Assembly: GCF_025917005.1 (NCBI RefSeq)
Contig: NZ_CP078091.1
Coordinates: 1,116,001 to 1,180,000, forward strand
Reading direction: 5' to 3'
Length of the DNA: 64,000 bases
DNA from: Porphyrobacter sp. ULC335
GTDB taxonomy: Bacteria; Pseudomonadota; Alphaproteobacteria; Sphingomonadales; Sphingomonadaceae
Part shown: piece after piece, positions 55,574 to 59,221 of the stretch
Numbering within the stretch: position 1 is the first letter of the stretch
Layout: each line of letters starts with the position of its first letter
Translations under genes and position numbers: made by a program
Notes under the pieces: model-generated
The model's database searches: none
The model's input: the letters and a program-made list of their open reading frames with translations, nothing else
What the model was told of the DNA's origin: nothing

Positions 55574-58120
55574 TTACGCCTCGACCAGCAGCCGCTCGAT
55601 CTCGGTCATGCCATAGGGTTTGCGCAGCACCGCTTCCGCGCCCATCCGCTCGAACCCGCCCGCCGCTTCGGCGTAGCCCGTGGCCAGCACGAAGCGCACG
55701 CCCGCTGCACGCAGGGCATCGGCAATCGGTTCGGAGGATTCGCCGCCGAGATTGAAGTCGATGATCGCGAATTCCCAGTGGCTCTCGGCAATCGCGGCGA
55801 GCGCGCCGGTGACCGAACTTTCCAGCCGCACCTCGGCCACGCCAAGGCGTTTCAGGTTCTCTTCGGTGTCGAGCGCGATGATGATGCTGTCCTCCACCAC
55901 CAGCACCCGCGCCGGATGGGCGCCCGATGGGCTGGCCGGATCGCGCAGCGGCTCGCGCGGGCGCGGGGGGATGCTGCTTGCGCCCGCTTCGGGGAGAGCG
56001 AGATAGCGCGCCGGCACGAGGAAATCGGCCTCCACCCCCGTCAGCTTGTAGCGCACGTCCGCCTCGCCCTGAAGGTCGTGGGGGATCGAGCGGGTGATGA
56101 TCGTCGATCCGAAGCCGTGGCGGGTCGGCGCGGTGACCGGCGGGCCGCCCGCCTCGCGCCAGCGCAGCGCAAGATCGCCGAAAGCGGTGCGCGCAAGGCT
56201 CACCTCGATGGTTCCGGCGCGGGCCGAAAGGCTGCCATATTTGGCGCTGTTGGTGGCAAGTTCGTGCACCACCAACGCAAGGATGGTGTAGGCCTCGGGC
56301 GTGACCAGCACATCATCGCCGCTCAGCCGGAAGCGCGCGCGCTCCGCGCCGCCATAGGGGGCGAGTTCCGCTGCGATCAGCTGGGCGAGGCTTGCCGGGC
56401 CCCAGTTCTTGGCGGTGATATTGTCATGCGCCGCCGCCAGTGCGGCAATTCGCCCGCCGATGATCGCGGCAAAGCCGGGAACGCTCAGCGCCTCGGCCTG
56501 CGATTGCGATACCAGCGCGCGGATCAGCCCGAGGATATTGCGCACCCGGTGGTTGAGCTCGGCGATCAGCAGGTCCTGCTGTTCGGCCGCGCGGGCACGT
56601 TCGCGGGTCAGATCCTCGCTCATGCGCAGGATCACCTCGATCAGCGTGCGGCGCAGGCGCGCGGCGATCTCGCATTCGTCGGCGCTCCATTCGGCACTGT
56701 GGCCGCGCACGGTCTCCTGCCACGCTGCAAAGCTGGCGCGCGGCTGGAGCAGTTCGCCCGGCGCTGCGGCCGCCTTCGCCGGATCGCCTGCCCAGGTGAT
56801 GACCCGTTCCAGCGGACGGCGCCACAGCACCAGCGCATCGCGGGTACCGCGCGACAGGGGCAGCACCAGAGCGCCCGCCGCACGTTGGGTGAAACAGGCG
56901 GCATCTTTGATCTGGTCGGCCAGCCGCGTGGTCGAATGGGTCGCCCCGCCCAGCGTGCTGGCGAGCAGCGGCGCGATGGCGCGGAACTCCGCCTCTGCGG
57001 GCGCATCGCCGCTGGCGCGGTATTCGCCATCGGCGAAGAGCGATATGCCGTCATGCTGGATCGTGCCGTGCAGCAGCTCCTCGATCATCGGCAGACTGTC
57101 CGCCAGGGTCACACCCCCGGCGAGGCGCAGCAGCAGCCGGTCGTTCAACTGCCGCGCCCGTTCGCGCAAGGCTTCGGCCTGCGCCACCAGAATGCGATCA
57201 AGCATCAGCGAGAAGGTCTGGCTGAGCAGTTCGGCCACGGTGCGCAGCGAGTAGGGCGGCAGGCGGGCTTCGCGGTGGTGGCAGGAGATCATCCCCCACA
57301 GCCGGTCGTGCCGCACGATCGCAATCGCCAGCGACGCGCCCACGCCCATGTTGCGCATATAGGCGAGGTGCATCTTCGAGTGCGAACGCAGCATCGACAT
57401 CGACAGGTCGAGCGGGGTGTCCTCCGGCCCGGTGGCAGGGATGATCGGCACGGCGTCCGAATCCATGTCGGCGATGATGCGGAAGCGGTTGCGGCGGAAC
57501 AGTTCGCGGGCCTGTTGCGGGATATCGGCGGCGGGGTAGCGCAGGCCCTTGAACGGTTCGAGAGCCTCGTCGCGGTCTTCAGCGATCACCTCCCCGCTGT
57601 CGTCCGGGTGGAAGCGGTAGATCATCACCCGGTCATAGCCGGTCATCTGCCGCACCAACCGCGCGGCCGTGTCGCACAGTGCGGTGACGGTTCCGGCCCG
57701 TTCGAGCTGGGCGACGACCGGAACGATCATGCTGACATGATCGGCAAAATCATTGCGGGCGTGGGGTTCGAACTCGATCACAGAGAGCCCGCAACTGATA
57801 TGCACCGCGCAGTCGAACAGTTGACCTTTGCCTGTCAAATCAACGCCAAAGCGGCGTTCCAGCGTGTCGATACCGGCAAGGTTGGCGAGCGCGTTGGTGA
57901 GGGTCTCAAATGCGCCGGGCGCGATGATGTCCGCTAACGGCGTTCCGGTCGCGGGGAGGTTTTCCAGCCCGAGAAATTCGGCGACATTGGCCGAGATGTG
58001 CGCCACCCGGCCGTGCTGGTCCGCCGCGATCAATCCGCCGAAGTCCTGCACGGCAGCGATATGGTGGATCGCCTCGCGGTCGCATTCGGTGAGCGTGTCG
58101 TTGCGCTGGTGGAGGTTCAT
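55574..58120 (-). CDS. bphP: Bacteriophytochrome histidine kinase with fused receiver
   Basis: An 848-residue red/far-red photoreceptor started at ATG 58120, overlapping the bphO stop codon (ATGA). The chromophore-binding Cys is Cys13 in LTECDREAIHHIAAVQDFG; the PAS domain spans 15-125 and the GAF domain 140-310 with DIP at 199-201 and His251 in KMHLAYMRNMG. The PHY domain (320-495) has the tongue motif PRASFAAWQE at 460-469. The kinase is of the HWE/HisKA_2 class with phospho-His524 in ELNHRVRNILGLIRAL. A receiver (about 725-845, VLVVEDSIIIALDTEENL; Asp in IIDFNLGGES) closes the protein. Biliverdin comes from the upstream bphO gene. Confidence 0.94.
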   Translation of the reverse strand: MNLHQRNDTLTECDREAIHHIAAVQDFGGLIAADQHGRVAHISANVAEFLGLENLPATGTPLADIIAPGAFETLTNALANLAGIDTLERRFGVDLTGKGQLFDCAVHISCGLSVIEFEPHARNDFADHVSMIVPVVAQLERAGTVTALCDTAARLVRQMTGYDRVMIYRFHPDDSGEVIAEDRDEALEPFKGLRYPAADIPQQARELFRRNRFRIIADMDSDAVPIIPATGPEDTPLDLSMSMLRSHSKMHLAYMRNMGVGASLAIAIVRHDRLWGMISCHHREARLPPYSLRTVAELLSQTFSLMLDRILVAQAEALRERARQLNDRLLLRLAGGVTLADSLPMIEELLHGTIQHDGISLFADGEYRASGDAPAEAEFRAIAPLLASTLGGATHSTTRLADQIKDAACFTQRAAGALVLPLSRGTRDALVLWRRPLERVITWAGDPAKAAAAPGELLQPRASFAAWQETVRGHSAEWSADECEIAARLRRTLIEVILRMSEDLTRERARAAEQQDLLIAELNHRVRNILGLIRALVSQSQAEALSVPGFAAIIGGRIAALAAAHDNITAKNWGPASLAQLIAAELAPYGGAERARFRLSGDDVLVTPEAYTILALVVHELATNSAKYGSLSARAGTIEVSLARTAFGDLALRWREAGGPPVTAPTRHGFGSTIITRSIPHDLQGEADVRYKLTGVEADFLVPARYLALPEAGASSIPPRPREPLRDPASPSGAHPARVLVVEDSIIIALDTEENLKRLGVAEVRLESSVTGALAAIAESHWEFAIIDFNLGGESSEPIADALRAAGVRFVLATGYAEAAGGFERMGAEAVLRKPYGMTEIERLLVEA

Positions 58121-58758
58121 GCGGGCAGATTTTCCGCAGCACTTCCAGCCACTTCGCCATGTTCCGCGATGGCAAGGAAATGGGCGAAAACGGCCTCTGC
58201 CGCGCGGGTTGCGCCTTCTGCCTCCTCCGGCGCGGCGGGACGTTCGATCCGGGCGCGCAGGCCTTGCCAGAACGCCATCATCATATCGTCGCCAAGGAAG
58301 GCGACCGGCCATTCGCCGCCGCCGATCCGCGCCACCTGCTTGGCAATCGCCTTGTTGCCGAGCGCCGATCCGGCCAGCACCCATGCCGCCCCCACACAGG
58401 CATGTTTCACGTGAAACGCCCCTGCCGACGGGGGTTTGGACAGGGTCTGGAGGGGGTCAAAGGGGGGGCTGGAGGGGGGCAAGGCCACACCAAGCGCCGC
58501 CAGATCGCGGGCAAGCAGCGGGGTCTGCGCTGGCGGGACGAGATCGGCAGGCGCATTGGCTAGCAGCCATGCTTCCAGTGGCACACGCGCGGCGTGTTGC
58601 AGCGCGAGGAAGCGGGCATAATCGGCGCGGGTCTGCCATCCGCTGGCGGCCTGCATTGCGTGATCGAGCAGATCATGCGCGGCCATCGTCGCAGCCCGCA
58701 GGCCTGCGCGCAGGCTTTCGCCCGGCTCTACCTTTGCCATGTCCCTGACCGGCGCCAT
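58117..58758 (-). CDS. bphO: Biliverdin-producing heme oxygenase
   Basis: A 213-residue protein started at ATG 58758 (GGAAGGA upstream); ATG 58740 and a frame open to 58818 are alternatives. SLRAGLRAATMAAHDLLDHAM contains the likely heme-ligand His, and LQHAARVPLEAWLL and GAAWVLAGSALGNKAIAKQVAR match the core helices; the Gly-rich distal helix is replaced by the AGSALG form. It opens heme to biliverdin for the phytochrome it is coupled to. Residues about 95-120 (PPSSPPFDPLQTLSKPPSAGAFHVKHA) are the translated parS element and G-rich repeats, an insert-like loop just before a conserved helix. Confidence 0.88.
   Translation of the reverse strand: MAPVRDMAKVEPGESLRAGLRAATMAAHDLLDHAMQAASGWQTRADYARFLALQHAARVPLEAWLLANAPADLVPPAQTPLLARDLAALGVALPPSSPPFDPLQTLSKPPSAGAFHVKHACVGAAWVLAGSALGNKAIAKQVARIGGGEWPVAFLGDDMMMAFWQGLRARIERPAAPEEAEGATRAAEAVFAHFLAIAEHGEVAGSAAENLPA
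58403..58418 (+). promoter_or_regulatory. parS: parS-like ParB-binding site C, inside bphO
   Basis: TGTTTCACGTGAAACG, 15 of 16 bases of parS, lying within the bphO coding sequence, where it encodes the residues around FHVKH on the opposite strand. Confidence 0.83.
58431..58480 (+). repeat. Phased 11-bp G-rich repeats beside parS, copy C
   Basis: Units begin at 58431, 58442, 58453, 58464 and 58475 at exactly 11-bp steps: GGGGTTTGGAC, AGGGTCTGGAG, GGGGTCAAAGG, GGGGGCTGGAG, then a partial unit. The array starts 12 bp after parS, as in copies A and B, although here it is constrained by the bphO reading frame. Confidence 0.83.
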
Positions 58759-58828
58759 GCCACCCGTCCTTCCTGCCCGAATCGGCTCGCGGCCGAATTG
58801 CCGCGCGATCCTCGGCATTCTACCCGAG

Positions 58829-58846
58829 TGTAAGGCAAATTAGGCA
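58829..58846. promoter_or_regulatory. Possible second, degenerate PpsR half-site pair
   Basis: TGTAAGGCAAATTAGGCA fits TGT-N12-GCA, one base off the TGT-N12-ACA consensus, 26 bp from the better site at 58855. Confidence 0.3.
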
Positions 58847-58851
58847 ACTTA

Positions 58852-58875
58852 ATGTGTCAAATAATTATGACACAT
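58852..58875. promoter_or_regulatory. PpsR/CrtJ-type operator upstream of bphO-bphP
   Basis: A perfect inverted repeat ATGTGTCA, 8-bp AT-only spacer, TGACACAT. It contains TGT-N12-ACA (58855-58872), the known recognition pattern of the PpsR/CrtJ repressors of anoxygenic phototrophs. It lies in an AT-rich island about 95 bp before the bphO start codon. A site for another dyad-binding regulator would look similar. Confidence 0.65.
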
Positions 58876-58921
58876 AGGTGAGGGACTGGCAATCGGGTTC
58901 GGATCGTGCGCGCTGCGCTGT

Positions 58922-59221
58922 TCAGGGAGCAAGCAGCCGTCCGGCTTCTTTCTTCACCGCAGCTTCCAGCGGGCCCTTCATCACGCTGAGCAGCAGCGGC
59001 AGGTCCATTTCGATCACCACCTCGTCCTCGCGGATTTCCACGCCGCCGGGGATCGCCTGACCCATGACTTCGGCGGTGATGTTCATGCGGTCCTCGTTCG
59101 GCCAGCCCGTCGTCACCTTGGCGAGTCCTGCCGGAAAGAAGTTACCGATCTCGTCCGCGTGCTTGTGCATGCGGCGGCGCACTTCCTCTTTGCCGAGGGT
59201 GTGGGGAAGGGTCACGCGCAT
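58922..59221 (-). CDS. Polyhydroxyalkanoic acid system family protein
   Basis: A 99-residue cytoplasmic protein that begins MRVTLPHTLGKEEVRRRMHKHADEIGNFF and has VTTGWPNEDRMNITAEVMGQAIPGGVEIREDEVVIEMDLPLLLSVMKGPLEAAVKKEAGRLL, the layout of the PHA-granule-region family (a small Bet-v-1-like domain). Members are found near polyhydroxyalkanoate genes in some bacteria but also alone, so a role in PHA storage is not certain; no PHA synthase gene is in the window. It lies three bases downstream of the XpaC-like gene on the same strand, so it is probably the last gene of a telA-xpaC-like operon. Confidence 0.78.
   Translation of the reverse strand: MRVTLPHTLGKEEVRRRMHKHADEIGNFFPAGLAKVTTGWPNEDRMNITAEVMGQAIPGGVEIREDEVVIEMDLPLLLSVMKGPLEAAVKKEAGRLLAP

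Follow-up and report, generated by a model that had tools for sequence, protein, structure and literature searches.

PpsR is known for its regulation of genes for pigments and antennae, and it is itself a known target of phytochromes. CrtJ binds pairs of palindromes as a tetramer, the two palindromes being “typically separated by eight nucleotides” (PMC9144470). In Rhodobacter capsulatus, those of bchC lie at -47 to -30 and -21 to -4, i.e., in a 26-bp register (PMC5362033). The PpsR target at crtI of Rubrivivax gelatinosus is a pair of imperfect palindromes with an 8-bp spacing, (TGa-N12-ACA)-N8-(cGT-N12-ACA) (PMC4452267). Phototroph circuits that link a bacteriophytochrome and PpsR have been described in Rhodopseudomonas palustris and Bradyrhizobium ORS278 (PMC6899989, PMC5362033). 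In these circuits, the PpsR protein is the target of BphP, and the two partners are encoded side by side; the contact is made by the PAS9-HOS output domain of BphP, which touches PpsR2 (PMC6899989).

The operator described here lies in front of a bacteriophytochrome operon, bphO-bphP, in a 64-kb window (the whole stretch of DNA that was analyzed). It is of the ordinary PpsR/CrtJ kind; what is new, within the literature searched, is which gene it targets and which way the control runs, from PpsR onto a phytochrome operon. The search, whose coverage left out most subscription journals, returned no paper tying PpsR to the regulation of bphO, and the sole paper found to name both, on Gemmatimonas, merely lists genes.

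The bphO-bphP operon and the photosynthesis genes of the host

The first gene of the operon, bphO (58117..58758, minus strand), codes for a biliverdin-producing heme oxygenase of 213 aa, the match of which to the Pfam family Heme_oxygenase is weak (17.5 bits, under the 23-bit cut-off). Its start was placed at ATG 58758 because this start is conserved in relatives, as is the Shine-Dalgarno sequence GGAAGGA that precedes it. The start of bphP (55574..58120, minus strand) at 58120 overlaps the bphO stop. According to Pfam, BphP is a bacteriophytochrome of PAS_2-GAF-PHY-HWE_HK architecture with HWE_HK as its output domain (75 bits); the N-terminal cysteine in TECDRE and the receiver-like C-terminal part were read from the sequence, without a Pfam score. 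The gene preceding bphO on the minus strand belongs to the PHA_gran_rgn family and ends at 58922.

The host genome is a single contig of 3.62 Mb, and the nearest named relatives are Erythrobacter and Porphyrobacter. The original prediction, made from the window, held that the organism carries a photosynthesis gene cluster and named a search for ppsR and puf, bch, and crt genes as the test that could overturn it; the genes are there. ppsR scores 370.8 bits against TIGR02040 (cut-off 275.4) and its product combines PAS domains with a Fis-type HTH. Also found were pufL and pufM, bchC, bchX, bchY, bchF, bchN, and crtD, as well as a B12-binding aerR-like gene that adjoins ppsR, between bchF and ppsR, and a bchG-like gene of the UbiA family that comes after ppsR. 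On this contig bphP and ppsR are far apart, near 1.17 Mb and at 3.31 Mb, respectively.

A probable tandem operator over a predicted promoter

A perfect 8+8 inverted repeat, ATGTGTCA-AATAATTA-TGACACAT, occupies positions 58852-58875 of the window, exactly as first read. Counted from the likely bphO start codon on the minus strand (58758), it lies about 94 bp upstream, in the intergenic stretch bounded by the upstream gene's stop (58922) and bphO itself; within it, at 58855-58872, is the TGT-N12-ACA palindrome of PpsR/CrtJ sites (operator 1, the strong one, TGTCATAATTATTTGACA, minus strand). Taken bare, neither pattern is remarkable in 64 kb, and the case is carried by comparative evidence. By arithmetic (4^-8 per position), 64 kb should hold about one perfect 8-bp inverted repeat around an 8-base loop, and for TGT-N12-ACA the window has 6 occurrences vs. 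4.2 expected. The extended core TGTCA-N8-TGACA, on the other hand, has a single occurrence in the 3.62-Mb genome.

When 49 genomes are aligned on the operator, 94-98% of them share TTGC at positions -20 to -17 relative to its start, without any shift. Together with CATAAT at +3 to +8, this gives TTGCCA-N17-CATAAT. Spacing and conservation suggest a sigma-70-like promoter with a -35 box TTGCCA at 58887..58892 and, after a 17-bp spacer, a -10 box CATAAT at 58864..58869 (both on the minus strand), from which the start site is also predicted. Since the predicted -10 box falls within operator 1, a bound repressor would cover both this box and the start site; overlap with the promoter, here itself a prediction, is a feature of PpsR/CrtJ operators. 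A second promoter starting from the right arm TTGACA was rejected, as no -10 box was seen by eye at a usable distance.

The dyad lies 47-70 bp past the stop codon of the upstream gene and its 8-bp stem would fold with -9.9 kcal/mol, and it could accordingly be read as an RNA hairpin or a terminator of that gene. We hold this for highly improbable: the stem is AT-rich, no T run follows it, and among 48 genomes the two arms do not stay complementary beyond TGTC/GACA, an A-T pair being found in 46% at the fifth pair and in 2% at the sixth. An intrinsic terminator was thus dropped, the GC-rich stem, the T run and the compensatory changes expected of one being absent. Further downstream, the predicted bphO 5′ UTR (58758-58857, minus strand; L009-L029) has a conserved hairpin, TCGGC-loop-GCCGA, that directly precedes the Shine-Dalgarno sequence; no pair of this hairpin was altered on both sides, i.e., there was no compensatory change.

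In the same alignment, a second conserved block follows operator 1. It corresponds to TGC-N12-ACA at +26 bp, a weak operator 2 (TGCCTAATTTGCCTTACA, 58829..58846, minus strand) located 8 bp downstream of operator 1. In a search for TGT-N12-ACA matches at offsets of -60 to +60 around the operator, the close clade has its highest match at +26 (a mean of 3.81 of 6 vs. 1.40), tied with the trivial -2 shift, and the more distant clade peaks at +25, with a perfect TGT-N12-ACA in two genomes (G325 and G348). By the same search, bchC peaks at +26 and bchG has +26 as its second-highest offset. The full pattern TGTC-N9-KGACA-N8-TGY-N12-ACA, with zero mismatches, is found at only two places in the genome, before bchC and before bphO. 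A separate regulator for the conserved TTGCCTAATTTGCCTTACAC element, initially read as a direct-repeat site for a response regulator, was dropped, this element being the TGC-N12-ACA in the 26-bp register. The strong dyad singled out by the original prediction thus stands, whereas its single-palindrome view gives way to a tandem pair with an overlapping predicted promoter.

This pair, with its 8-bp gap and imperfect second palindrome, is built like the CrtJ/PpsR operator of R. capsulatus bchC, in which the palindromes are 8 bp apart, in a 26-bp register, and one covers the -10 box (PMC5362033, PMC9144470). The two differ in the place of the other palindrome, which at bphO is degenerate (TGC) and downstream of the start site and at R. 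capsulatus bchC covers the -35 box. They also differ in their target: that of the bphO pair is a bacteriophytochrome operon located away from the photosynthesis gene cluster. The pair at Rubrivivax crtI shares the 8-bp spacing; unlike bphO, however, crtI is a pigment gene of a beta-proteobacterium and both of its palindromes are imperfect (PMC4452267).

The shared motif and the proposed control by PpsR

Across the genus, related sites precede photosynthesis genes: the region separating crtD from crtF-like genes has TGTCCAATTATTTAGACA-like sites, the region in front of bchC has TGTCCAAGTTGTTTGACA-like sites, and bchG is preceded by TGTCAAAATAATTTGACG. A matrix was trained on these crtD/crtF, bchC, and bchG operators only, the bphO sites being left out, and was run over the 64-kb window and over an 80-kb region spanning the photosynthesis gene cluster. 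The bphO dyad came out on top of the window with 24.5 bits, the runner-up place scoring 9.2, and falls inside the range of the training sites (at least 23.2 bits, median 28.0). No score reached 20 bits in 8 Mb of first-order simulated sequence. The best scores in the 80 kb around the cluster were 31.2 (bchG), 30.8 (crtD/F), 25.1 (bchC), and 19.5 bits; the last belongs to a PpsR-like site, CGTCCAATCTAGTTGACA, at 3312658 (L007 ~7658), in the intergenic region of the aerR-like gene and bchF.

Seven one-mismatch copies of TGTCA-N8-TGACA exist genome-wide, three of which (3271121, 3297896, and 3309882) fall in a 40-kb stretch at the photosynthesis gene cluster. The ORFs flanking the one-mismatch sites L031, L032, and L035 showed no photosynthesis link. 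The site at 3271121 (L032), about 25 kb from the cluster, reads TGTCTAACCTAAATGACA, scores 14.5 bits, and lies between ORFs without an evident photosynthesis role. At 3492996 (L035 ~1501), two alike AT-rich stretches, ATGTTTTTACATTCTCGTTG and ATGTCAAAAGGTTTTTACATTCGAG, precede an ORF for a small membrane protein and one of HTH type and are perhaps sites of another regulator.

The preferred half-sites are TGTCATA at bphO, TGTCCA at bchC and crtD/F, and TGTCAA at bchG. This difference is what a bphO-specific regulator with a similar dyad, responding for example to biliverdin, heme or BphP, would have in its favor; such a regulator in place of PpsR seems improbable nonetheless, for bphO and bchC share the core, the 26-bp tandem register, and the uniqueness of the pattern genome-wide, and where ppsR is missing from the genome, the bphO promoter nearly always lacks the site.

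Taken with the presence of ppsR and the conservation described below, the match to the operators of the photosynthesis gene cluster bears out the PpsR/CrtJ-type operator proposed at the outset, and we infer that PpsR binds it. The tandem operator very probably overlaps the bphO-bphP promoter and serves PpsR to repress the operon as part of the photosynthesis regulon. The dyad would be the high-affinity half; a PpsR tetramer sitting on both palindromes across the 8-bp gap would occlude the -10 box and the start site and, by analogy with CrtJ at bchC, block transcription of bphO-bphP. Release of PpsR may come through redox state, or through light by way of the adjoining B12-type AerR-like protein, and upon release bphO and bphP would be made along with the bacteriochlorophyll genes. 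By such joint release the red-light sensor and its biliverdin supply would be members of the photosynthesis regulon in the genus. Because the bphO promoter and the bacteriochlorophyll genes share the paired PpsR site, the sensor is probably switched together with the photosystem in this group of light-using aquatic bacteria.

PpsR could also bind and activate, or change sign with an AerR partner, bphO-bphP then being up when the operator is bound. An activating role is possible because the long AerR form converts CrtJ to an activator in R. capsulatus (PMC9144470); furthermore, one PpsR of Bradyrhizobium is activating (PMC12654162), and an aerR-like gene adjoins ppsR in this genome. The operator, however, lies over the predicted -10 box and start site, the classic blocking position, whereas activators usually bind upstream of -35, and activation is in our view unlikely, though more plausible than a separate regulator. 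Repression by PpsR remains the preferred reading.

A PpsR operator on a phytochrome operon reverses the known arrow and would set the production of the sensor to the time of the photosystem. The original prediction went further and drew a closed loop between sensor and repressor. The arm from PpsR to the bphOP promoter is backed by the operator; the arm from BphP to PpsR is not, and no sign of BphP acting on PpsR was seen in this genome analysis. RpBphP1-type phytochromes have a PAS9-HOS output replacing the kinase and a bphP gene adjoining ppsR, while BphP here ends in an HWE kinase and its gene is distant from ppsR. The likeness to R. palustris and ORS278 is that of a phototroph circuit with the same two partners, in which PpsR would here act on a promoter.

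PpsR is reported to be a heme sensor in Rhodobacter (work cited in PMC6879726). A tetrapyrrole/light feedback, in which a heme-sensing PpsR would control the heme-consuming, biliverdin-making bphO and the phytochrome would signal back on the photosystem genes, is a speculative extension that we rate as rather doubtful. Under it, the genus would have evolved a second, transcriptional coupling of PpsR and a phytochrome, which runs against the direction of the known protein contact. The wiring proposed here is concrete and testable for aerobic anoxygenic phototrophs, the regulation of which is little studied; the 44-bp bphO pair offers a probe, with bchC as a positive control in the same genome.

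Conservation and distribution of the operator

Conservation of the dyad upstream of bphO in relatives, the other test set at the outset, holds in all 21 of the 21 named relatives, one of which (L017) has one base fewer between the half-sites. Ten core positions are retained while the loop and flanks vary among genomes, and distant members with unalignable surroundings retain both the site and the second palindrome. A chance dyad, conserved only through the closeness of relatives, would agree with the background counts in the window, where about one bare dyad is expected and TGT-N12-ACA is not enriched. These patterns of retention argue against it, as do the matrix score, the conservation of promoter and operator, and the two-place uniqueness of the tandem pattern, which together leave chance with hardly any likelihood.

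The genus comprises 114 genomes, 70 with bphO and 86 with ppsR. The bphO site is present with at most one mismatch in 48 of 63 bphO genomes that have ppsR vs. one of six that do not (one-sided Fisher p = 0.007, phylogeny ignored); a further ppsR-bearing genome (G319) was left out of the 63, its site region being cut by a contig end. By matrix score (at least 10 bits), the counts are 44/64 vs. 0/6 (two-sided p = 0.0018, phylogeny ignored). Both comparisons are to be read with the small size of the ppsR-lacking group (n = 6) and the non-independence of genomes within one genus. All six genomes with bphO and without ppsR also lack pufL/M; one of the genus's ppsR-lacking genomes (G253, 84% complete) retains a partial pair. 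Conversely, 8 of the 63 genomes with ppsR have no site within two mismatches, and among such genomes G255, G304, and G317 retain a decayed or shifted version. Upstream of bphO in G280, TGTAACAATATCTGTACA stands in the place of the operator; it retains TGT-N12-ACA and has lost the adjacent CA/TG, and the promoter and second block are still conserved.

In the family outside the genus, the site was found in none of 27 bphO upstream regions, including those of five genomes of two other genera that carry ppsR (G100, G162, G006, and G211; G226). The link between PpsR and bphO therefore looks specific to this lineage, judging from these upstream sequences, and not a general rule. Two of the genomes from another genus (G100 and G162) have four Photo_RC matches each, i.e., two pufLM sets in separate places.
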